In this document: in pieces, positions 6,361 to 32,575 of the stretch
Layout of the letters: each line of letters starts with the position of its first letter
Position numbering within the stretch: position 1 is the first letter of the stretch
Virus record (IMG/VR): IMGVR_UViG_3300035698_017235
Span: 1-35,208 of that record
Origin: a virus
DNA length: 35,208 bases
Direction: 5' to 3' (one strand)
The notes under the pieces: model-generated
What the model saw: only the letters and a program-made list of their open reading frames with translations
The model's database searches: none
Told to the model about the DNA's origin: nothing
Made by a program: the position numbers and the translations under genes

Positions 6361-7308
6361 ATGGTAGAATTAACATTAGGAAAAAGGGAACAGATAAGCA
6401 TGAAGGAGGAGACGGATTACGGTGACGCAGTAACACCAACGCTCATAATGGGAAGAGAAGCTATATGGGAGCCGAACAATCTGGAAAATTGGATTGAGCT
6501 AAGAGGAGCAGATAGTAACGACGTGAACGTGGATGATATGGAAATAGGTATGAAAACAGTTGGCGGAACATTGACATTTGCTCCGCAGGACTGGATATTC
6601 ATGAAATATATTCTTTGTGATGGTAGTTCTGATATTGCAGATACTGAACCAGCAGCTTATTATTTACATACGTTTACAAACGCGGTGGATGTTGGGAGTT
6701 TCACTTTACAAAGAGCACAACAGTTAACTGCTTTAGATGACCATGTTGTTACATATGATGGATGTCAAGTAGATAAATGTTCAATGTCTTGGGATTCAAG
6801 CGGTGGTGATGCATTACTTAAGGTAGCTCTTACAGTTTTAGCTCAGGATTTAACGGCAGGAACAACGACTACATCAATAGCTGGAGCTACAACAAGCGCA
6901 TTTCAGTTCAGGAATGTTGTATTAACATTGAATGACTCAGAAGTAACAGAGCATGTTGGTGGAACATTTAATATAGAAAATAATTTAAATCCAGCTAGAT
7001 ATTCAAACTATACTCTAGATAGAACAAAGGGAGAATCCGCACCAACAATTAGAAGATTTAATGGAAGTTTTAGAATAAGAGTAAAAAGCGATGCATATTT
7101 TGACTTCTGGGATACTGACGCAGTAATAGATGACTGTAAACTTAAATTTGAGAGGGGAACAAACGACCTGGCAGAATTTACATTCGTCAATTTCAGAATA
7201 GAAAATGCACCCGACCCAACAAATTTGGATGGAATAAATACAGTTACAATAAATTGGACAGCAGAAGATGCAACTCTTACAGCACAGGATGCTATTGGGG
7301 TTTATTAA
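6361..7308 (+). CDS. Major tail tube protein
   Basis: This is a 315-residue, beta-rich acidic protein, with start ATG after GGTGAT. It lies directly before the frameshifted tail chaperone, the standard position of the tail tube protein. Internal features fit the tail-tube fold with duplicated beta layers: GGTLTFAPQDWIFMKYIL near the N-terminus, VDKCSMSWDSSGGDALLKVALT mid-protein, and SFRIRVKSDAYFDFW with a closing TVTINWTAED strand. It should form the hexameric rings of the non-contractile tube. No sheath gene is present, so the tail is of siphovirus type. Confidence 0.8.
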   Translation: MVELTLGKREQISMKEETDYGDAVTPTLIMGREAIWEPNNLENWIELRGADSNDVNVDDMEIGMKTVGGTLTFAPQDWIFMKYILCDGSSDIADTEPAAYYLHTFTNAVDVGSFTLQRAQQLTALDDHVVTYDGCQVDKCSMSWDSSGGDALLKVALTVLAQDLTAGTTTTSIAGATTSAFQFRNVVLTLNDSEVTEHVGGTFNIENNLNPARYSNYTLDRTKGESAPTIRRFNGSFRIRVKSDAYFDFWDTDAVIDDCKLKFERGTNDLAEFTFVNFRIENAPDPTNLDGINTVTINWTAEDATLTAQDAIGVY

Positions 7309-7326
7309 AAACCAAGAGGTGATTGA

Positions 7327-7674
7327 ATGTACGAAGAAGACTTCGTAAAAGAAGCATTGATAGATGTTAAGATAGATAAAAGGGAGTTTAAGTTCAGAGA
7401 AATAACAGGAGAAGAACACGATAAAGTTGCTGGAGAATCCATAAGCATATCGGAAGATGGAAAAATTAATATGGATTTAGGCAAAAGAAATCTTGGATTT
7501 CTTCTGACTATGGTAATTGAAGCTCCATATGAAACAAACGGCAAAAAATACAAGGATATGAATATAATAGAGAAAACGAAGGTTCTTAAGAAGCTAAACT
7601 TTAATATGTTCGGAAAGCTCTGTAAGGAAGCCAACAAGATACTTGGAGTGAGTAAGGAGACTGAAAAAAAATAG
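7327..7674 (+). CDS. Tail assembly chaperone, short (gpG-like) product
   Basis: The product has 115 residues, with start ATG after GAGGTGAT. It begins with short beta strands (ALIDVKIDKREFKFREITGEEHD) and continues helical, as in tail assembly chaperones of the gpG / DUF-type families. The stop TAG is preceded by eight A residues, and a second reading frame opens just beyond, as in the lambda G-GT arrangement. These chaperones bind the tape measure during tail assembly and are absent from the virion. Position between tube and tape measure supports the call strongly. Confidence 0.8.
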   Translation: MYEEDFVKEALIDVKIDKREFKFREITGEEHDKVAGESISISEDGKINMDLGKRNLGFLLTMVIEAPYETNGKKYKDMNIIEKTKVLKKLNFNMFGKLCKEANKILGVSKETEKK

Positions 7675-20327: not shown

Positions 20328-22157
20328 GTGGGCGAACCAGTAATGCCGCCAATGATTCTGCCGAAGAATTTCTGGACAAAAAGAAAGTCAATGAAGGACA
20401 TAATAAAGGAACTCGTGGGACACAAAATATTGGAAGAAGAGGAACATACGACCAATGACCTTGGCATAGAAATCGAGGAAGCATATAAAGACAGCCTAGA
20501 TGAACTTCCAAAGGAGAGGAAAATAGACCACGTATTGGACTCTAAGACAATAGATTTTCTCAAGAGCGAGAAGATTATAAATTCCGTAATGAAAATTCTG
20601 GATAAAAATGTGATAGGCGAGATACACAACAAGCTCCTTGTCTATCTTATATGCTTATCGACCAAAACAGGCAATGTCATGTCCGTCATAATTACGGGCG
20701 AAAGTGCGATAGGAAAATCATATATGAGCGACAATATTCTTGAGCTGTTCCCAGAAGAGATGGTCATGGACTATTCAAGGATAACAAAATCCGTTATAGA
20801 CCGTATAGGAAAGGACGTCCGAGGTATGATATTCTATGTAAAGGAGATACAGGGCGCAGAAGATGCAGCCAGCACATTAAGAGTGTGGATATCAGAGAAG
20901 AAGCTAAAGCTACTAACTACGACCAAAGATGAACAGGGCAACATAGTCACTGAGGAGATAGAGACAATAGGCTCCCCAAGTTTCATATCAACGACAGCCG
21001 AGATAAAGATAGAACAGCAGCTTGGAACAAGATGCTGGATAGTGTCGCTGGACGAGACAGCGGAACAGACAAAAAAGATAATGGATTATATAGCAGAATG
21101 CGCCAAGATGCCAGATTTTGGCAAGGAAGAGAGCGACGAAAAAAAGAAAATCATTGCCAATATACCAAATGTGCTTAAAAATTATAAGGTTCTGGTGCCA
21201 TATGCTGACATGATAAAGTTTCCAGGGGACAGGGTGTCCGCACGCAGAAACTTCAAGAAGTTCATAGACCTGATAAAGGTTGTGGCCTTTTTACATCAAT
21301 TCCAGAGACCTCAGCTAATTGTGGGCGACATGGATACTTATATTATAGCCAATAAGACAGATTTTGACTTGGCGACAGAGATAATCAGGACAAATCTTAG
21401 GGCAACGACTGCTGGTGTGCCAGATATATGCTTGGATATACTTACCCAGATAAAGGATTTTGATGGGGAGCTTACCCATAAAAGCATATCTACTATGACC
21501 AACAGGGCCCAAGGTACGATAAGGAAGATAATGCCTCAGTTACTACAGGCGGGATTCGTTACTTCTGGCAAAAAAGGAAGAGAAAATTTATATTATATAC
21601 AGAAAACCCCCAAGGAAGTGTTCCAAAGTGTGGGTAACAGTTTAGCTGGTTGGACAGACAAAACTGGGGTAGCTGAGTACCTCAAATCTATGTGTTCTGC
21701 TGCTCCTCTATTATCTAACTACAAAAAAAATATAACAATATTATTGAAGGGTACTTGTTATCCTTTAACGCTCTTTGAGCACAATAATGATGATATGAAG
21801 AGTATAATAGAAGAATATGATGAATATAAATATTTACTCTCTGTTCCTACGGAGCAGCAGAGCAGTTCGCTACGGAGTATGGAGAGTGCTCCTTTAGTAT
21901 CTGATAAGAAGCAGGAAGTGCTCGGAGCATTTGGGAGCAGTTCTCATGACGATAAAGAGCTTGAAACGGAAGGAGGAGCGATTTCCGATACAAGGTTCAT
22001 TGAACTTTATCCGACAGATGACGGAGAGCTAATCGACATAATTGAGGAGAAGGCAAAAAGTATTGGATTAGGTATGGCAGAATTTGCAAAAAGGCATAAA
22101 TATTTCCTAAAAATTGGATTTATATCCGAAGATAAAGGTTATTTTAAAAAGATGTGA
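20328..22157 (+). CDS. MCM-like AAA+ ATPase with winged helix, replication helicase candidate
   Basis: The product has at least 609 residues. Walker A is GESAIGKSYM (about 130); Walker B is GMIFYVKEIQGAED; SPSFISTTAEIK is a sensor-1 type segment; GTRCWIVSLDE carries a likely arginine finger. A winged helix follows (LTHKSISTMTNRAQGTIRKI to VTSGKKGRENLYYI), then a flexible acidic section and a final helical domain. This order matches MCM-type ATPases of archaeal and bacterial mobile elements. It is probably the replicative helicase or initiator. GTG at 20328 has no ribosome site; the frame is open and protein-like back to 20229, without ATG, GTG or TTG. Confidence 0.75.
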   Translation: MGEPVMPPMILPKNFWTKRKSMKDIIKELVGHKILEEEEHTTNDLGIEIEEAYKDSLDELPKERKIDHVLDSKTIDFLKSEKIINSVMKILDKNVIGEIHNKLLVYLICLSTKTGNVMSVIITGESAIGKSYMSDNILELFPEEMVMDYSRITKSVIDRIGKDVRGMIFYVKEIQGAEDAASTLRVWISEKKLKLLTTTKDEQGNIVTEEIETIGSPSFISTTAEIKIEQQLGTRCWIVSLDETAEQTKKIMDYIAECAKMPDFGKEESDEKKKIIANIPNVLKNYKVLVPYADMIKFPGDRVSARRNFKKFIDLIKVVAFLHQFQRPQLIVGDMDTYIIANKTDFDLATEIIRTNLRATTAGVPDICLDILTQIKDFDGELTHKSISTMTNRAQGTIRKIMPQLLQAGFVTSGKKGRENLYYIQKTPKEVFQSVGNSLAGWTDKTGVAEYLKSMCSAAPLLSNYKKNITILLKGTCYPLTLFEHNNDDMKSIIEEYDEYKYLLSVPTEQQSSSLRSMESAPLVSDKKQEVLGAFGSSSHDDKELETEGGAISDTRFIELYPTDDGELIDIIEEKAKSIGLGMAEFAKRHKYFLKIGFISEDKGYFKKM

Positions 22158-22162
22158 TAAAT

Positions 22163-22657
22163 ATGAGATGTCCAAAATGTGGAAAAGATATGGAGATGTT
22201 TTATTTTCAGGAAGAAGATAATATAAAAGATATAGAATGGAAGTGTAATGTTCATGGTTATTTTACAGAAAGTTATTTAGGTATAAAAAATTTAAAGGAG
22301 GTGACAACAATGGTGGGTATAAACTGGGAAAATATCGGCGAGGATTTTGAGAAGCTTGAAGCATTTCAGCTTGAAGTAGGAAAGGAAACAGATGTTTTAT
22401 TCCATGACGACGGAAAACCTGTATCAAAAGATGAGATGAAAGAAGCAAAGTTTCCAAGAGACGCATTTGTCTTTGTTATGGAAGAGAATAATGTAAAAAA
22501 GAATTGGTGGATAAATCAGAGAGATTTTTCAACACTAAGACAGCTGAGAGAAATTCGTGGTGAGGAATCACTTGCTGGAATAAGAGTACACATAAAACGT
22601 ATATCTAACAGTCCAAAAGAACAGAACTGGGATATAGCTGTAATGGAAGAGGTCTAA
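22163..22657 (+). CDS. Zinc-ribbon protein with internal start, possible replication accessory
   Basis: The full product has 164 residues from ATG 22163. The N-terminus has CPKCGKDM and CNVHG. A strong AAAGGAGGTGA site at 22294-22304 precedes an in-frame ATG at 22310 that would give a separate 115-residue protein beginning MVGINWENIGEDFEKL. That part is a beta-rich domain (ETDVLFHDDGKPVSKDE, DAFVFVMEENNVKKNWWIN, IRVHIKRISNSP), somewhat like OB-type or single-strand DNA-binding folds. Located just after the AAA+ gene. Confidence 0.6.
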   Translation: MRCPKCGKDMEMFYFQEEDNIKDIEWKCNVHGYFTESYLGIKNLKEVTTMVGINWENIGEDFEKLEAFQLEVGKETDVLFHDDGKPVSKDEMKEAKFPRDAFVFVMEENNVKKNWWINQRDFSTLRQLREIRGEESLAGIRVHIKRISNSPKEQNWDIAVMEEV

Positions 22658-22666
22658 ATGACCTCT
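22648..22666 (+). terminator. Perfect hairpin over a stop codon, possible terminator
   Basis: AGAGGTC 22648-22654 and GACCTCT 22660-22666 form a perfect 7-bp stem with loop TAAAT; the loop holds the stop codon. A T-rich run follows. It may end transcription of the replication genes, or be an operator, as the element is palindromic. Confidence 0.4.
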
Positions 22667-22676
22667 CCATTATTAT

Positions 22677-22916: not shown

Positions 22917-22968
22917 GAATAGGAAGTTATTTAAGAAAGTAAATTTGAAATACAAGAAGAGGGTTATA

Positions 22969-23424
22969 ATGAGTTATAATATAGATTATTTTAGCGTAAA
23001 AATACCAGATAATAAAGAGCCAAAAGAATATAGTTTTGTGGAGAGAAGAGCAGATATATTGAATATGATTTTAGAGGCTGGTCATCCAAGAGCTATAAGC
23101 CAAAGTGAACTTGCTGTTAAATATGGTGTTTCTCAAGTAACAATTCATAATGATTTTGAAGCTCTTGCAACCTTTTATGAAAATACATCAGATAGAAAAA
23201 CAGTAAATTTTATAACAGAATCAGTATATCAAAAAAGTATAGCAGCGTTAATGAAACAAGGTGAATTTTTTAAAGCTTCTCGTATTCTTGAAATGTGGAA
23301 CAACTGGCTATTTAATATGGGAAAGATTAAAAAGTCGCCAGATGAACTTGCTCAAAAGATAGAAGTTTCGTGGTTAGACGATGACGATGACAGCGCCGAT
23401 GATGACGATGATGACGGAAAGTGA
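22969..23424 (+). CDS. Small terminase subunit-like protein with HTH
   Basis: The product has 151 residues. ATG 22969 is used; the TTG at 22945 is the only longer option. Residues 35-65 include ISQSELAVKYGVSQVTIHNDFEAL, a clear helix-turn-helix (reported here as motif ISQSELAVKYGVSQVTIH). A helical centre and a very acidic tail (Asp runs) follow. It lies before the large terminase with only a tiny ORF between. Terminase small subunits recognise pac/cos DNA by such HTH domains. A transcription factor is the alternative. Confidence 0.65.
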   Translation: MSYNIDYFSVKIPDNKEPKEYSFVERRADILNMILEAGHPRAISQSELAVKYGVSQVTIHNDFEALATFYENTSDRKTVNFITESVYQKSIAALMKQGEFFKASRILEMWNNWLFNMGKIKKSPDELAQKIEVSWLDDDDDSADDDDDDGK

Positions 23425-23570: not shown

Positions 23571-24881
23571 ATGAGAATAAAGGCAGAATATAGACCTCAT
23601 CCCAAACAACGTAGTTTTCATAAATCTAAGTCAAAGTTCAGATTATTAAGCACAGGAGTTGGCTTCGGCAAAACGGCTGCAGGAGTGACAGAACTGTTAA
23701 AACAAGCTTTAAAATCCAAGCCGTGTATATATGTAATGGTTGCCCCGACCTATAAGATGCTCACACAGGTCACAATAAGAGAGTTTCTTAAGTTCTGTCC
23801 AAGAGAGTTAATAAAGGACTATAATAGGGGCCGACAGGTCATAACACTTATTAATGATGTAGAAATTCTTGGAATAGCAGGAGATAGGGAAGATACTATT
23901 GATAGGATAAGGGGCCTTTCAATAGGCGGTGGATATGGAGATGAGATAGCTCTATGTCCTGAATATATGCATGAGATTCTTATAGCAAGACTGCGTGATG
24001 CAAATGGATGTCTAAGGATTTGGTATACAACCACTCCAAAGGGATTTAATTGGCTGCATAGGATATTTGTAAAGAAGGAAGATAAGAAAGGCAATCTATA
24101 TAAGAATCCTGAGGACTATGAAATATTCACTGGTTCTACAATGGATAATCCACATACTCCAGAAGAATACAAATCTACGATGCTTAATACTTATGTTGGA
24201 GTTTTCAAGAGTCAGGAAATTTATGGTCAGTTTGTAGGTTTTGAATCATGTGTATATCAGAGCTTCAGAAGAGATTTACATGTGGTAGATATTGGTAAAA
24301 TGAGAGAAGAATGGAATGAGAAATATAATATAGAGGAAGGAGAAGAAAAGGAAGAAATGTTTAAATCATTTGTTTGTGGTGTTGATTTCGGATTTACTAA
24401 TCCTAGTGTAATATTAAAGATAGGATTTGACCATGATGGAAGGGCTTATATAACAAAAGAATTTTATCAGACAAAAGTAACAGATAAAGAATTGGCCCAA
24501 ATAGCAGCTGATGAATTTGGTGAAGATGTAAATTATATAGCAGATTCTGCAAATCCTGGTGGAATAGAAGAATTTAAGAGAGTTGGTCTAAGTTGTAAAG
24601 GAGCCAAAAAATTTAAAGGAGAAGGCGAAGAAGGATATGTTATGTCTGGGATAAAATATATATCAAGTCTTCTTGAACCACAAGAAGATAAGAAGCCTAG
24701 GTTATATATTGATAAAAGTTGTGTGAACACGATAATGGAGTTTGAAAATTATAGGTATCCAGATAGCAAGGATGAAAGGCCGTTACAGGAGAGACCTTTA
24801 AAAGTTTATGACCATGCTATGGATGCTTTGAGATATGCGCTGGTTAAAAGAGTGAAAGAACTTGTGTTTGCGTTTGCGTAG
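23571..24881 (+). CDS. terL: Large terminase subunit
   Basis: The product has 436 residues. ATPase domain: Walker A STGVGFGKT (about 27), APTYKM, Walker B GYGDEIAL, coupling motif YTTTPKG. Nuclease domain (RNase H-like): GVDFGFTNP, ADSANPGGIEEF and DHAMDALRYAL supply the acidic residues. The order and spacing are complete, so it should be active. It cuts and pumps viral DNA into the prohead at the portal. The site AACGGGGGA stands before the ATG. Short N-terminus (about 25 residues before Walker A) is normal for this group. Confidence 0.95.
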   Translation: MRIKAEYRPHPKQRSFHKSKSKFRLLSTGVGFGKTAAGVTELLKQALKSKPCIYVMVAPTYKMLTQVTIREFLKFCPRELIKDYNRGRQVITLINDVEILGIAGDREDTIDRIRGLSIGGGYGDEIALCPEYMHEILIARLRDANGCLRIWYTTTPKGFNWLHRIFVKKEDKKGNLYKNPEDYEIFTGSTMDNPHTPEEYKSTMLNTYVGVFKSQEIYGQFVGFESCVYQSFRRDLHVVDIGKMREEWNEKYNIEEGEEKEEMFKSFVCGVDFGFTNPSVILKIGFDHDGRAYITKEFYQTKVTDKELAQIAADEFGEDVNYIADSANPGGIEEFKRVGLSCKGAKKFKGEGEEGYVMSGIKYISSLLEPQEDKKPRLYIDKSCVNTIMEFENYRYPDSKDERPLQERPLKVYDHAMDALRYALVKRVKELVFAFA

Positions 24882-25311: not shown

Positions 25312-25986
25312 ATGTCGGATTTAATAAAGATAATAAAAAATGAAGTAAACAAAGTAACAGGCAAGAAAGAAGAAGATAAAAAAGATAGATATTTTTATGT
25401 AACGGATATAGTAAAGTGTAGGCGTCAAATTTCTTATCAATGGACAAACGCAGATAAAACTCCATATGATATAAGTAGTCTCTTGAGGTTTGATGTCGGA
25501 AACGCAGTTCATATGATTTTAATGAGATATCTTTTTCAAAGGAGAAATATAAGAGTAGTAAGCAGCGAAGTAGACCTACCATATGAGAAATGTAATGGAT
25601 TGATTCATGGCCGTGCTGATGCAATAATAACCATTAAAGGTGAGAATGAGCTACGTGTGGTCGATTTGAAGTCTATAGCTAGCTATGGTTTTAAGCGAGT
25701 AAAGGATGGAGAAGAAAAGGAAGAATATCTTTTACAAGTTCAACTTTATATGTATTTTTTTGATATAAACAAAGGTTCAATTTTATATATGAACAAGGAT
25801 ACATCAGCGCTATTTGAACAAGAAGTTGAGAGAGACGATAAAAAGATTGAAAAATTAGTAGAAGAATTTATTCAACTTAAAGAGAAATTAGACCGTGGAG
25901 AAAAGCCAGACCGTCGTAAAATTAAAGATTGGCATTGCGACTGGTGTCCATATAAAAATATTTGTCTTGAAAAAACTGTAAAGTGA
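25312..25986 (+). CDS. Cas4-like PD-(D/E)XK nuclease
   Basis: The product has 224 residues. VTDIVKCRRQISY supplies the first Cys; GNAVHMILMRYLF a conserved helix with His; LIHGRADAII and LRVVDLKSIAS the catalytic Asp and D-x-K; LLQVQLYMYFF the QxxxY motif; and WHCDWCPYKNIC the C-terminal three Cys of an iron-sulphur cluster. This is the full Cas4/RecB-type pattern. No cas1/cas2 or repeat array is near. Viral Cas4-like exonucleases may make recombinogenic ends in replication, or interfere with host spacer acquisition. Confidence 0.85.
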   Translation: MSDLIKIIKNEVNKVTGKKEEDKKDRYFYVTDIVKCRRQISYQWTNADKTPYDISSLLRFDVGNAVHMILMRYLFQRRNIRVVSSEVDLPYEKCNGLIHGRADAIITIKGENELRVVDLKSIASYGFKRVKDGEEKEEYLLQVQLYMYFFDINKGSILYMNKDTSALFEQEVERDDKKIEKLVEEFIQLKEKLDRGEKPDRRKIKDWHCDWCPYKNICLEKTVK

Positions 25987-25987
25987 C

Positions 25988-26006
25988 CGATAGTTTTATA
26001 AACGAG
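25988..26006 (+). promoter_or_regulatory. Head-module promoter, copy 1 (late-type TATA)
   Basis: CGATAGTTTTATAAACGAG occurs here and again, identical over 19 bases, at 29770. The TATA core TTTATAAA is centred near 25999, giving an expected transcript start near 26024. Both copies stand before head genes, so this is probably a distinct late promoter class. Confidence 0.7.
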
Positions 26007-26055
26007 GCAAAGCATTTTTAGATTATTATAGTCATTTAATTATGACGCACCCCTT

Positions 26056-26127
26056 GGAAAGGAAGATTACCCACCATCCTTTCCTTTTACAGCGGTCATG
26101 GGTAAAACCGCAATCGGCTCATGGCCG
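26056..26127 (+). ncRNA. Three-hairpin RNA element with loop-loop complement before portal
   Basis: Hairpin 1: GGAAAGGA 26056-26063 with TCCTTTCC 26077-26084, loop of 13. Hairpin 2: GCGGT 26092-26096 with ACCGC 26107-26111, loop of 10. Hairpin 3: CGGC 26115-26118 with GCCG 26124-26127. Loop 1 holds TTACCCA (26067-26073) and loop 2 TGGGTAA (26099-26105), perfect complements, allowing a 7-bp kissing interaction. TTTTAC 26085-26090 can instead pair with GTAAAA 26102-26107. It lies between promoter and the likely portal start. It may be a 5' leader or a separate RNA. Confidence 0.55.
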
Positions 26128-26137
26128 TCTTACAATT

Positions 26138-28330
26138 ATGTCAAGAAATAATATATTCGGAGCAGCAGGGATGCCAGCAAGAGGAGTATTTACTTCTGTT
26201 ACTCCACCGAAGAGAGAAGGCGCATCTTCAGCAGTGGCGAGCGGGCTGACAAGTAGTTCTATTTACAAAGCTGTTATACCAAAGTTTCTATATAAACCAC
26301 CTTACGGATATCCGAGGTTTGTGGATATTCCTGAACTAAGAAGATTATCAGCAACGCCTTTTATTGCAATGTGTATTCAAACAATTGTGGATGAAATAGC
26401 TGGTATAGAATGGGATATAGTACCCAGGCATGAAGAAGCAAGCGAATCACATATAGAAGAGGTTCAAGATTTTTTTGATAATCCAAATGTAAACAAAGAA
26501 AACTTTAATCAGCAGCTCAGAAAAATAATAAGGGATATTCTTGAGGTTGATTCTGGTGTATGGGTTAAAGTGTTTGACCGTATGGGAAAATTTAAGGAGC
26601 TTTTTGTTTATGATGGCGGAACATTTACAAAGAATCCAGATATGTTCGGGACGTTTGCTGATAGGGCCGAGATAATACCAGGCTACTATGGAGCGCAGCT
26701 TGGTAAGGTTCAATATAGTACTGAGACTGGATATAGTCTTTCTGATGAAGGAAATAAATGGATGCAGGAAGCACCTGCTTATTTTCAGTATGGTTGGATT
26801 ACTGGCGCCAGGCCAATGCCATTCGGGAGCAGGGAAATAATTTATTTAATGAGGAATCCAAGAAGCGAGAATATATATGGACGAAGTCCAGTAGAGATTC
26901 TCGTTAATGTCATTCAGATGCTTGTTTATGGAGTAGATTACAATCTTGATTATTTTATGGATAATAATATACCAAAGGGCGTCTTCAAAATGATTGACGC
27001 CGACAAGGCTGCAGTAGATAGATTCAAGGAACAGTGGCAGTCAGTCACAAAGATGAAAAACGAGGTCGGAGACTGGAGACAGAGATGGTGGAAGATGCCT
27101 ATTATAAGTACTGATGGTGCTTTTGAAAGGATACAGTTTTCAAATGTAGAGATGGAGTTAATATCACAGCAGCAATGGTTTACTAAGCTTATTTGGGCCT
27201 GTTTTGGCTTGAATCCTAGTGAACTTGGTTACACTGAAAATTCCAACAAGGCGGTAGATACAAATCAATCTAAAGTTTTCAAGAGAAAGGCAATAAAGCC
27301 GATTCTACAGTTATTGGAATTCCACATAAATACGGAGATAATATGGCAGGAGTTCCACGAGGATGTTAAGTTCCAGTTCGATACTTACGACCTGGACGAT
27401 GACATGAGCAAGCACCAGCTTTACGAATTGCAGATAAAGAACGGAATAAGAACTGTCAACGAGGTCAGGGAGGAGATGGACCTTCAGCCAGTTGATGGTG
27501 GAGACGAGATAAAGAAACCTGGCGGATTCAATCCGTTTCAGCAGCTTGGAAATGAAGGCGGAAAATTAAACTTTGAAAATGAAGAAGAAGAAAAAAGTTT
27601 AAATAATCCTACACTTATTGGTCAGCACGAAGTTCCTTATACAGAAGAGAGGATGGCCAAAGCGATTAAATATGCTATAAAAGAAATAGAGAAGGCCGTA
27701 TTGGAGCAGCTTAAAATGTATATGCCGTCTGGACCAAAGAATCTTGAGAGAATAAAGGAACTGACGCCAGATATAATAAAAAAGTTAAAATCTTTAGTTT
27801 CGTTGGGCACAACTGAAGAGATAGTTAAGTCAATAATAAAAAATTCTTTCTTAAAATCATTAAACAAGGCCGAACAGGAAATGGAAATGAATTTCGTGCC
27901 GAATCAGAAGACGATAGATTTCTTACAGAATTACACCTTTGAGAATGTAAAAGGAATATCAGAAGATTTAAAAAATAAGCTCCAGCAGGAACTGTCGCGC
28001 GGAGTTATGGAAGGCGAGGGAATAACCAAGCTGAAGAACAGGGTCAAGAAGGTTTTTGATGTGGGTGATATCAGGGCCAAGGCGATAGCGAGGACCGAAG
28101 TTAATCGTGCAGAGAACATAGCGCATCTTGAAGGATATAAGCAGGCAGGTATTCCTGGGAAAAAAAGATGGATAGCTACAATGGATAGCAAGACATGTGC
28201 AACTTGTAAAGCTTTAAATGGTCAGGAAGTAAAACTTACTGATAAATTTGAAGCAAAGGGTTGGGAAGGAGAACATGGTCCCCAGCATGTAAATTGTCGT
28301 TGTCGTATAGTTTTTGTGCCAGGTGATTAA
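26138..28330 (+). CDS. Portal protein fused to MuF-like head morphogenesis domain
   Basis: The product has 730 residues from ATG 26138; the frame extends to ATG 26042 (762 residues), but that stretch overlaps the folded RNA element and reads as atypical protein. Residues to about 480 form the portal: IPELRRLSATPFIAMCIQTI, DILEVDSGVWVKVFDRMG, YGRSPVEILVNVIQML, LIWACFGLNPSELGYTEN. After an acidic linker the C-terminus has AIARTEVNRAENIAHLEGYK, DSKTCATCKALNG and QHVNCRCRIVFVP, the Mu gpF/SPP1 gp7 pattern with its Cys/His set. The portal is the DNA entry ring; MuF domains are minor head proteins, usually separate genes. Confidence 0.9.
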   Translation: MSRNNIFGAAGMPARGVFTSVTPPKREGASSAVASGLTSSSIYKAVIPKFLYKPPYGYPRFVDIPELRRLSATPFIAMCIQTIVDEIAGIEWDIVPRHEEASESHIEEVQDFFDNPNVNKENFNQQLRKIIRDILEVDSGVWVKVFDRMGKFKELFVYDGGTFTKNPDMFGTFADRAEIIPGYYGAQLGKVQYSTETGYSLSDEGNKWMQEAPAYFQYGWITGARPMPFGSREIIYLMRNPRSENIYGRSPVEILVNVIQMLVYGVDYNLDYFMDNNIPKGVFKMIDADKAAVDRFKEQWQSVTKMKNEVGDWRQRWWKMPIISTDGAFERIQFSNVEMELISQQQWFTKLIWACFGLNPSELGYTENSNKAVDTNQSKVFKRKAIKPILQLLEFHINTEIIWQEFHEDVKFQFDTYDLDDDMSKHQLYELQIKNGIRTVNEVREEMDLQPVDGGDEIKKPGGFNPFQQLGNEGGKLNFENEEEEKSLNNPTLIGQHEVPYTEERMAKAIKYAIKEIEKAVLEQLKMYMPSGPKNLERIKELTPDIIKKLKSLVSLGTTEEIVKSIIKNSFLKSLNKAEQEMEMNFVPNQKTIDFLQNYTFENVKGISEDLKNKLQQELSRGVMEGEGITKLKNRVKKVFDVGDIRAKAIARTEVNRAENIAHLEGYKQAGIPGKKRWIATMDSKTCATCKALNGQEVKLTDKFEAKGWEGEHGPQHVNCRCRIVFVPGD

Positions 28331-29769: not shown

Positions 29770-29788
29770 CGATAGTTTTATAAACGAG
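29770..29788 (+). promoter_or_regulatory. Head-module promoter, copy 2
   Basis: This 19-base element is identical to the one at 25988. TTTATAAA is centred near 29781, placing the expected transcript start close to 29808, right at the GTG of the protease gene. It begins directly after the previous stop codon. Confidence 0.7.
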
Positions 29789-29809
29789 TCATAATAGAAA
29801 TAGAAATAG

Positions 29810-30901
29810 GTGATAAAGATTCCTTTTGGAGAATATACAGATTTTGCAGAATGTGTAAGAAAAAATCAGGACAAAAGAGACCCTGAAGCATATTGCGCCC
29901 AGATTCACAAGGATATAACAGGTGAATGGCCAACTGAAAAATCTATGGAGTTCTTTACAAACGAAATGAACTTTGAGGAAATAGAAAACAAAGACGGAAA
30001 GAAATATTTCGTCACGGGATATATTTCTACTTATGATAAGGACTTGGTAAATGATATAGTAACTCCTGGATGCATGAAGAATATGCTCGACCAGTTGAGG
30101 AACAGAAGCATAAAACTTGATGTGGAGCACGAAAGCTTCAAAGGAAAGACGAACTTTGAAAAGCAATTGAACAAGACCATAATTCCTATAGGAAGGATAA
30201 TAGAAGCTGACATAGACAAAAAAGGCATAAAGATAAAGGCAATTCTCAACAAGGCGCACTCGCGTTTTAATGAAGTATGGGAATCAATAAAGGGGCTATT
30301 TCTTGACGCTTTTAGCATAGCCTATTTGCCGACGTCTACGCAGGATATGGTCACTAAGGATGGAACAACAAGATTATTAGATAAACTTAATCTTTTTAAC
30401 GTGGGACTCACAGGAAATCCAGCTAACCCGAACTGTACGATGGGAGCGATGTTCGTGAAGTCACTCGAAATTTTTAATAAAAATAATATGGAGGAAATAA
30501 ATATGTCAAAAGAAGAATTAGAAAAAATTGAAGCTAAATCCAAAGAATTCGAAGACAAGAACGCTGAGCTTGTAAAAGAAAATGAGACAATAGTAAAGGA
30601 AAAAGAAGAATTTACAAAAGAAATAGAATCTTTGAAGGAAGAGATTGAAGCTTTAAAAGAGAAAATTACAAAGAAAGATGCCGAAGACGGTGAAGACGAC
30701 GGAGAGACAGATAATGCTGATAAAGGAGAGAACAAGGAATTGAAAGAAAAGGTAGAAGGAATTGAGAAGCAGGTCAAGGAACTTAGTGAGTTCATGAAAA
30801 AATCTGACTATAAAGCAAAGAAAGAGGACATGAAAAAGATTTTGAGCGAGGAAGACATAAAATCGCTTAAAGGTAAAAATGTCATAGATAGTATTAAATA
30901 A
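29810..30901 (+). CDS. HK97-type prohead protease with C-terminal scaffold
   Basis: The product has 363 residues. The N-terminal section FAECVRKNQDK to CAQIHKDITGEWP is a small domain seen on other phage head proteins. The U35-type protease follows: MNFEEIENKDGKKYFVTGYIS, the His in KLDVEHESFKG, the Ser in FLDAFSIAYLP, then VGLTGNPANPNC. From about residue 232 a long coiled coil with an acidic insert is the scaffold. The protease cleaves scaffold and capsid proteins in maturation. The start is either GTG 29810 (leaderless, from the promoter geometry) or ATT 29819 after GGTGAT. Confidence 0.85.
   Translation: MIKIPFGEYTDFAECVRKNQDKRDPEAYCAQIHKDITGEWPTEKSMEFFTNEMNFEEIENKDGKKYFVTGYISTYDKDLVNDIVTPGCMKNMLDQLRNRSIKLDVEHESFKGKTNFEKQLNKTIIPIGRIIEADIDKKGIKIKAILNKAHSRFNEVWESIKGLFLDAFSIAYLPTSTQDMVTKDGTTRLLDKLNLFNVGLTGNPANPNCTMGAMFVKSLEIFNKNNMEEINMSKEELEKIEAKSKEFEDKNAELVKENETIVKEKEEFTKEIESLKEEIEALKEKITKKDAEDGEDDGETDNADKGENKELKEKVEGIEKQVKELSEFMKKSDYKAKKEDMKKILSEEDIKSLKGKNVIDSIK
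30503..30901 (+). CDS. Nested in-frame start for a free scaffolding protein
   Basis: GGAGGA at 30489-30494 lies 8 bases before an in-frame ATG at 30503. Translation from here gives MSKEELEKIEAKSKEFEDKN and the whole coiled coil (132 residues), with no protease. This mirrors lambda C/Nu3, where scaffold is made from an internal start of the protease gene. It predicts two products from one gene. Confidence 0.6.
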   Translation: MSKEELEKIEAKSKEFEDKNAELVKENETIVKEKEEFTKEIESLKEEIEALKEKITKKDAEDGEDDGETDNADKGENKELKEKVEGIEKQVKELSEFMKKSDYKAKKEDMKKILSEEDIKSLKGKNVIDSIK

Positions 30902-30914
30902 AGGAGGCAAAAAT

Positions 30915-32057
30915 ATGAAAGGAATAGGAGTAGGAGAATTTAAGTCAGTAGTTACAAGCACTGCTTATCAACAGTCTTTTGGAGCACTTGATAATGGAAC
31001 ATGCTATTCAGATGGTTTTAAAAATATAGATATAAGAGAAGACCTACAAACTTTGATAAATGCAGGATTAGAAACAGTACAAATGAAAGCTTACGGAACC
31101 ACAAGTGCAACCGCAGGTGGACCAGGAACCGCAGGAGTAGCTATGATACCAGTTTATGTTGACCCAAGAATAGTTGACACAACAAGAAAATATACACCTT
31201 TGGTTGAATTGATTCCAAGAGTAACAAATATGGGCGTAACTGCAGATTTTAACAAGATAACAGCAAAAGGTTCCGCAGTAGTAAAGGCAGAAGATGCAGC
31301 ATTACCAGAACAGGATGATAGTTTAGACAGGGCATCAGTACCTATGAAATATCTATATGCAGTCGGAAGAGTAACTGGACAGGCAAGGGCAGCTTATCCA
31401 TCATATATACTTGAGGGATTCCAGGCAACTGGAGCAGGTCTTGCAGGAACAGCATTCTCACCAAATGCAGCACCAAACGCTAAACAACTTGCAGTAATAA
31501 TAAAGGCAAGGGCAATAAGGGAACTTGAAGAAGAACTCATAGTGAACGGTGACATAGGTGCCGACGCCAACGAATTCGATGGTATTGTTGACGAGATGGC
31601 TGACGTAAACGAAGTGGACAGGAACACGGCAGCTTTGAGATATGCAGATGTTGAAACCGCAATACAATACGCATTTGACGACGGTGGAAGACCAAACCTG
31701 GCAGTAGCAGCAAGTTCTGTATTAACTGATTTGAGGAAGTTAATGATAGATACTTTCAGATATAGACCAGTTGATATGGTTACTGAATTGCCATTTGGAA
31801 TTTCGAGCCACTTAACATTAGAGACAATGGTTGGACCAGTTCCAGTAATACCGAGCATGAATTTGAGCAATGTTTCTGGAAGCAAAGGAATTTACTTCCT
31901 GGACATGGGATACATCGAAATGAGAGTCTTGCAGGACATGACTTATGAAGACATGGCGCATACCAACGATTCTGAGAAGTTTATGTTGAAGATTTACGAG
32001 GGTTTGGTAATGAAGAACCCAGCATTCAACGCTCAGATAAACGAGATATCAGCATAA
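30915..32057 (+). CDS. Major capsid protein, HK97 fold
   Basis: The product has 380 residues with AAGGAGGCA site and directly follows the scaffold. Residues 80-150 (VYVDPRIVDTTRKYTPLVEL, VTADFNKITAKGSA) match the N-arm/E-loop region; the spine helix includes KQLAVIIKARAIRELEEELI; the A-domain has RPNLAVAASSVLTDLRKLM and the closing strands IYFLDMGYIEMRVLQDMTYED. No Lys-rich cross-link site can be judged. Expected protease site near the scaffold-like N-terminus is not certain. Gene order makes the call firm. Confidence 0.9.
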   Translation: MKGIGVGEFKSVVTSTAYQQSFGALDNGTCYSDGFKNIDIREDLQTLINAGLETVQMKAYGTTSATAGGPGTAGVAMIPVYVDPRIVDTTRKYTPLVELIPRVTNMGVTADFNKITAKGSAVVKAEDAALPEQDDSLDRASVPMKYLYAVGRVTGQARAAYPSYILEGFQATGAGLAGTAFSPNAAPNAKQLAVIIKARAIRELEEELIVNGDIGADANEFDGIVDEMADVNEVDRNTAALRYADVETAIQYAFDDGGRPNLAVAASSVLTDLRKLMIDTFRYRPVDMVTELPFGISSHLTLETMVGPVPVIPSMNLSNVSGSKGIYFLDMGYIEMRVLQDMTYEDMAHTNDSEKFMLKIYEGLVMKNPAFNAQINEISA

Positions 32058-32067
32058 GGTGAATAAT

Positions 32068-32316
32068 ATGACAGGAGCAACAATAACTGTAACAAATACA
32101 GTTCCACATTTAGGTAAGTCATTAATTTACTTTAGCGTCACCCTTGACGGTTCGGCGAAGGCGGACTTCAGCGACTATAGTACAGTTGACTGGGTAAATG
32201 CTGTAGATGTAGATGATTTAACACCCGAAGCTACGACAGCATACACGGCAGCTGGAGATATAACCTTTACCAACAACGATAACCCAATAAAGGGAATGGC
32301 ATTGGTAAATCTATAA
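32068..32316 (+). CDS. Small head protein, tandem copy A (decoration candidate)
   Basis: The product has 82 residues, ATG 32068 after AAGGTGAATA; the in-frame GTG at 32059 is part of the site. It is a compact beta protein: ATITVTNTVPHLGKSLIYFS, DWVNAVDVDDL, AAGDITFTNNDNPIKGMALV. Copy B follows with the same length and clear DNA similarity. The place right after the capsid gene and the small beta fold suggest a capsid decoration or cement protein. Confidence 0.7.
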   Translation: MTGATITVTNTVPHLGKSLIYFSVTLDGSAKADFSDYSTVDWVNAVDVDDLTPEATTAYTAAGDITFTNNDNPIKGMALVNL

Positions 32317-32326
32317 GGTGAATAAT

Positions 32327-32575
32327 ATGACAGGAGCAACAATAAGTGTAACAAACACGGTTCCCCACATGGGGAAGTCATTGATTTACTTTAGTGTCAC
32401 CATCGACACCGATGAAAAGGCGGACTTCAGCGACTATAGTTCAGTTGACTGGATAAATGCTGTAGATGTAGAAACGTTGGCAGCAGAACCCGTGACAGCA
32501 TACACAGCAGGTGGAGATATAACCTTTACCAACGACTCGAACGTCATAAAGGGAATGGCACTGGTGAATCTATAG
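32327..32575 (+). CDS. Small head protein, tandem copy B
   Basis: The product has 82 residues, paralogous to copy A; most differences are in the middle (VTIDTDEKADFSD for VTLDGSAKADFSD; ETLAAEPVTAY for DDLTPEATTAY). The ribosome site GGTGAATAAT is duplicated too, so the repeat unit was gene plus leader, about 259 bases. The pair may form mixed oligomers or bind two capsid positions. It is followed by a terminator-like hairpin. Confidence 0.7.
   Translation: MTGATISVTNTVPHMGKSLIYFSVTIDTDEKADFSDYSSVDWINAVDVETLAAEPVTAYTAGGDITFTNDSNVIKGMALVNL

Follow-up and report, generated by a model that had tools for sequence, protein, structure and literature searches.

The 35,208-base record IMGVR_UViG_3300035698_017235 (G000; analyzed at its full length and referred to below as the window) carries three predicted hairpins directly upstream of its portal gene, and the loops of two of them are complementary. 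This raises the question of whether the element is protein-coding sequence, a functional RNA, a DNA site or a neutral insertion. The record represents a tailed virus with the following genes around this locus:

22945-23424, small HTH-like protein, encoded upstream of TerL
23571-24881, large terminase TerL (phrog_2, 2.4e-47)
25312-25986, Cas4-like nuclease
26138-28330, plus strand, portal gene with a C-terminal minor-head/morphogenesis domain, start codon ATG 26138 (phrog_2662 portal, 1.6e-80)
30915-32057, major capsid protein (MCP) gene

Judged from its position and sequence, the HTH-like protein is probably the small terminase subunit. Portal homologues are present in Woesearchaeota MAGs and in one further archaeal MAG (L111-L113), which points to a DPANN (Woesearchaeota-like) archaeon as the probable host; a further portal match was found in a fourth genome (L254). 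The archaeal tailed-virus genome proposed in the first-pass annotation is supported. Directly after the capsid gene, a gene of ~85 codons is duplicated in tandem (32054-32574; copies 84-87% identical, spacing 259). The start of gene 29810 (PFGEYTDFAECV...) is homologous to a stretch inside the portal gene of a relative (L004, 8519-8644), and a small domain thus moves between two proteins. A tRNA-Met gene (anticodon CAT) was identified in another contig of the same virus family (L101, 2429-2501).

The region between the nuclease and the portal gene contains the following transcription signals:

25987-26008, plus strand, archaeal-type promoter block CCGATAGTTTTATAAACGAGGC (also given as CGATAGTTTTATAAACGAG), 22 nt, repeated in the window
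25994-26002, plus strand, TATA box TTTTATAAA within this block
26025-26137, plus strand, predicted 5' leader of the portal mRNA, ~110 nt (about 113), with its start taken from the TATA spacing and its end at the portal ATG

The promoter block was found twice, before the portal gene and at 29770-29791 (95% identity over 22 nt), upstream of the gene starting at 29810. This duplication of the TATA-containing block bears out the promoter that had initially been placed upstream of the element. Of 100 distinct homologues, 80 have a TATA-like box ahead of the portal gene. Based on the spacing to the TATA box, portal transcription is predicted to begin near 26025.

The start codon of the portal gene was examined in 100 distinct portal loci, in which the protein mostly starts ~33-45 codons ahead of the conserved YKPP core. 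The N-terminus encoded from ATG 26138 (MSRNNIFG) fits an M.RNF.NLFG-type pattern matched by 38 of the 100 homologues, whereas the start at 26042 does not. For residues 1-32 of the 26042 frame no counterpart was found in any portal homologue, the nearest relatives L031, L062 and L004 included (63, 57 and 57% identity to the window over the portal core). Conservation of these residues at the protein level had been named in advance as the observation that would speak against an RNA element, and the homologues do not reach into this stretch. The homologous N-termini from about 100 portal genes also support ATG 26138, which had been preferred from the outset. Since the homologous starts align with this codon, 26042-26137 is leader and not protein; it is hardly credible that translation of the portal begins at ATG 26042 with an N-terminal extension, in a frame open from 25994, as no homologue shares it.

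The element is non-coding and, with transcription starting as predicted, lies between the TATA box at 25994-26002 and ATG 26138. Its G+C content is 0.52, compared to 0.36 for the whole window. A Shine-Dalgarno (SD) site is absent from the ~110-nt portal leader. Among the 100 portal starts, five are preceded by an SD-like core, two of which (L102 and L111) are apparently chance matches.

The predicted structure of the leader comprises the following parts:

26056-26084, plus strand, hairpin H1, stem GGAAAGGA/TCCTTTCC (26056-26063 with 26077-26084), 8 perfect bp, 13-nt loop, -10.0 kcal/mol
26067-26073, plus strand, loop 1 7-mer TTACCCA in the H1 loop
26092-26111, plus strand, hairpin H2, stem GCGGT/ACCGC (26092-26096 with 26107-26111), 5 bp, 10-nt loop
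26099-26105, plus strand, loop 2 7-mer TGGGTAA in the H2 loop, complementary to loop 1
26115-26127, plus strand, hairpin H3, stem CGGC/GCCG (26115-26118 with 26124-26127), 4 bp, 5-nt loop, -5.1 kcal/mol
26092-26128, plus strand, alternative long hairpin (26092-26102 with 26118-26128, inner pairs 26108-26110 with 26115-26117), part of the minimum-energy fold

The three hairpins in 26056-26127, the perfect 8-bp stem and the complementary 7-mers were all located exactly where they had first been described. In dinucleotide-preserving shuffles of 26042-26137, a pair of hairpins whose loops match over 7 nt (stem length 5 bp or more, loop length 6 to 14 nt) arose in 1 of 20,000 cases. Besides the H1/H2 loop pair, the plus strand of the window contains no further pair of this kind; whole-window shuffles yield 0.17 on average, and the combination of an 8-bp stem with a loop pair was seen in none of 30 whole-window shuffles. 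The loop complementarity exceeds chance. The fold stability is moderately unusual, with a z-score of about -2.3 to -3.7 depending on the frame (-3.4 for 26024-26145 and -2.7 for 26042-26137), and the element ranks ~14th among 2200 windows in a fold z-score scan of both strands. The standout feature is the specific loop complementarity and not the overall stability. The lowest z-score of the window (-6.6) belongs to 7265-7360 on the minus strand, where the tail-tube gene 6361-7308 ends. Also among the most significant folds (z -4.8 on the plus and -6.2 on the minus strand) is a strong hairpin at 22640-22674, TAATGGAAGAGGTC-taaat-GACCTCTCCATTA, which spans the stop codon of gene 22154-22657 and looks like a terminator or a 3' end processing signal.

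H1 forms in both predicted alternative structures. The best nested fold consists of H1 and the long hairpin into which H2 and H3 merge (-28.3 kcal/mol), compared to -21.6 kcal/mol for the three-hairpin form. A 7-bp loop-loop duplex would add about -8.1 kcal/mol and bring the kissing form to ~-29.7 kcal/mol, nearly equal to the nested fold, with the reservation that these energies are rough and that a loop-loop contact differs from the free duplex used for the value of -8.1 kcal/mol. The long hairpin rules out H2, H3 and the loop-loop contact; because it consumes the TGGG of loop 2, the kissing and long-hairpin forms are mutually exclusive. PMC8250186 cautions that a fold predicted from a single sequence is no evidence of a functional RNA, and this caveat applies to the predicted fold of the window element.

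Searches for relatives of the element returned no match in Rfam at the gathering cut-off and only a chance U4atac match at E <= 10, and blastn against phages gave nothing meaningful. The gapped pattern TTACCCACC..TGGGTAAAA was matched 17 times over IMG/VR, all matches being unrelated on inspection. DNA and covariance-model searches of 371 archaeal genomes of the host phylum, run without a positive control, resulted in chance-length matches only. Among the 100 portal loci, the covariance model, which consists of one sequence given twice and detects close relatives only, matched nothing but the element itself. The nearest portal relatives (L031, 63%, and L004, 57% over the core) are without the element.

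A wider view of the leaders of this virus family was obtained from the 80 loci with a clear TATA box. For 44 of them the leader is shorter than 30 nt (mean 18.6 nt), with the leader starts assigned by an automatic procedure that may have misplaced some of them by a few codons (e.g., L063). These short leaders are mostly unstructured and often end in TTCATACTC or a similar sequence ahead of the ATG. Hairpin leaders form a scattered minority with longer leaders, 15 of the 80 reaching -9 kcal/mol or lower. Unrelated hairpins occupy the stretch from TATA box to portal ATG in L057, L063, L101, L111, L201, L203, L227 and others, and the sequences of the longer leaders are mutually unrelated, except for the group L072/L073/L092/L189 and a short stretch common to L043 and L063. 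That most relatives have short plain leaders and a scattered minority has unrelated hairpins at the same place is the new observation of this comparison. In L201 (portal start 2501), a GGCGGTG..CACCGCC hairpin carries a loop CATTCA that is complementary to TGAATG just upstream, perhaps a pseudoknot, so that loops may pair at this position in a second virus as well.

Structured leaders (-9 kcal/mol or lower) were found before 15 of 80 portal genes and before 8 of 40 other promoter-proximal genes of the same contigs (Fisher p = 1); a special association of hairpin leaders with the portal gene is therefore unsupported, the control set of 40 leaders being small. As other genes have them at a similar rate, structured leaders may be typical of these viruses in general, or background, instead of a device specific to the portal. 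The idea that hairpins hold the unpaired leader length constant was dropped, as shuffled leaders look alike.

The one recurrent leader RNA, with a three-way-junction-like predicted fold, was found at the following positions:

L072, 4394-4487, portal-leader RNA
L073, 1153-1246, portal-leader RNA
L092, 4836-4928, portal-leader RNA
L189, 2403-2500, portal-leader RNA

A pattern search over IMG/VR identified this leader type in just these four contigs, each time before the portal gene. No match to it was found in Rfam, and it was rejected as a degenerate tRNA since no tRNA was found there. In a comparison of L072 with L092, identity is highest in the leader (92.5%), compared to 82% over the initial 600 bases of the portal gene and 77% for the 66 bases upstream. 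The pairing is kept where a stem changes from ATC/GAT to GTC/GAC and where one pair changes from A-U via G-U to G-C, with covariation that is weak (120 of 500 shuffles reach the same level). The L189 leader is 67-70% identical to the other three, below its coding DNA (73-75%), and is too diverged for a secure alignment.

With moderate confidence, we interpret the window element as a structured 5' leader that acts in cis on the portal mRNA and tunes portal expression. Transcription from the TATA-type promoter block would start near 26025 and yield a ~110-nt leader lacking an SD site. Downstream of H1, this leader could adopt two competing arrangements, either H2 and H3 with the H1-H2 loop contact or the long hairpin, and its folding may alter ribosome access to the SD-less portal message or the stability of that message. 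In this way the leader would keep portal output below that of the capsid under one late promoter type. The portal is present in 12 copies per virion and the capsid protein in hundreds. A near-identical promoter block precedes the capsid-side genes, the first of which appears nearly leaderless, and the MCP gene has a strong SD (AAGGAGG); because the block is common to both sides and the MCP gene has this SD, folding of the leader would be an easy means of setting portal below capsid. As a guess, the two folds might act as a switch, e.g., read by a virion protein. Among the roles suggested in the first-pass annotation, the control of portal dosage by a leader was the most reasonable, in its cis-acting form, and the effect on dosage is one that we infer. 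A functional role is plausible rather than proven, since the portal leader, being folded, SD-less and ~110 nt long, matches neither of the two usual kinds.

The cis-acting leader is supported by the recurrence of folded structure between TATA box and portal ATG across members of the family, though the folds are unrelated, and further by the high conservation of the L072/L092 leader, the loop complementarity in excess of chance, the scarcity of SD-like cores at portal starts and the promoter block common to the portal and capsid-side genes. Because the folds at this spot in some relatives are unrelated, the leader looks more like a rapidly evolving control element than like a packaging RNA. A broader version appears improbable as a whole, namely that rapidly replaced, non-homologous leader folds in DPANN tailed viruses exert autogenous or virus-specific translational control of the portal-to-capsid ratio, in the window by a two-state kissing-loop switch. 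Against a cis-acting leader count the orphan status of the element and its absence from the nearest relatives, the fact that hairpins are no commoner at portal genes, and the weak covariation in the L072 group.

Absence from close relatives and a frequency of hairpins that is as high before other genes would also be expected if the leader tolerated the hairpins as neutral or lineage-specific insertions (e.g., small mobile hairpin relics) with no regulatory role. The mostly unrelated hairpins of different lineages and the only moderate fold z-score fit this explanation as well, but the loop-loop match and the perfect 8-bp stem are improbable by chance, the L072/L092 leader is conserved above the coding sequence, and a second copy of the element was not detected within the window. 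We consider a neutral insertion unlikely, though the most probable of the alternatives.

Every part of the element is an inverted repeat, with TTACCCA and TGGGTAA as half-sites at a spacing of 32 bp (about three helical turns). Read as double-stranded DNA, this symmetry could mark a dyad operator or, among the packaging genes, a terminase recognition (pac) site. Such a DNA-level role is rather improbable: a pac site should be common to relatives with related terminases and portals, from which the element is missing, and the pair tolerated as G-U in the L072 group fits RNA better.

The two near-isoenergetic, mutually exclusive folds predicted here are also what a ligand-sensing riboswitch could show, stabilized by its loop-loop contact in an architecture comparable to purine-type aptamers. 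Known riboswitches are conserved across distant genomes. The element has no Rfam match, and no conserved aptamer was found among the ~100 portal loci or the 371 genomes (the genome search being without a positive control). The ligand-sensing leader considered in the first-pass annotation thus found no support, no homologue of the element having been detected, and it is very unlikely.

If the cis-acting leader is the correct reading, it would be a cis-regulatory RNA in a virus of DPANN archaea, and it would provide a concrete, testable case of portal and capsid protein being made in widely differing quantities from one late promoter type. Both plain and folded leaders that occur naturally in the family are available from the comparison and can be tested directly. 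To our knowledge, gene control in viruses of DPANN archaea is essentially unstudied. A literature search on Woesearchaeota viruses with portal and terminase and on structured leaders in archaeal viruses found nothing, which proves little given its partial open-access coverage.

Compared to known systems, the element shares with the phi29 packaging RNA (pRNA) two mutually complementary hairpin loops per molecule and a location near packaging genes. Complementary loops in one molecule could permit ring oligomers, and the site next to the portal gene would suit a trans-acting RNA assembling on the portal. The analogy, drawn in the first-pass annotation, is not supported, and a packaging RNA of this kind is very unlikely: the virus encodes TerL (phrog_2, 2.4e-47), preceded by the HTH-like protein, and not a gp16-type (HerA/FtsK-like) ATPase, Rfam gave no pRNA match, the predicted folds are separate hairpins without an end-closing helix or three-way junction, and relatives have no counterpart. 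The loop contact of phi29 pRNA is 4 nt long, whereas that of the element would be 7 nt and sits in an mRNA leader.

The L072-group leader belongs to the same virus family, likewise lies between TATA box and portal start and has a similar length (93-98 nt compared to ~113 nt). Its sequence and fold are unrelated to those of the window element, and it is conserved within its subgroup.

The closest likeness of the proposed cis-acting leader is to the structured 5' leaders of phage late mRNAs, which control translation or stability and among which mutually exclusive folds are common. The window element differs from these in its DPANN-virus context, its SD-less start and its unique sequence and fold, the fold type varying among relatives; the arrangement of promoter, folded non-coding leader and structural gene is the same.
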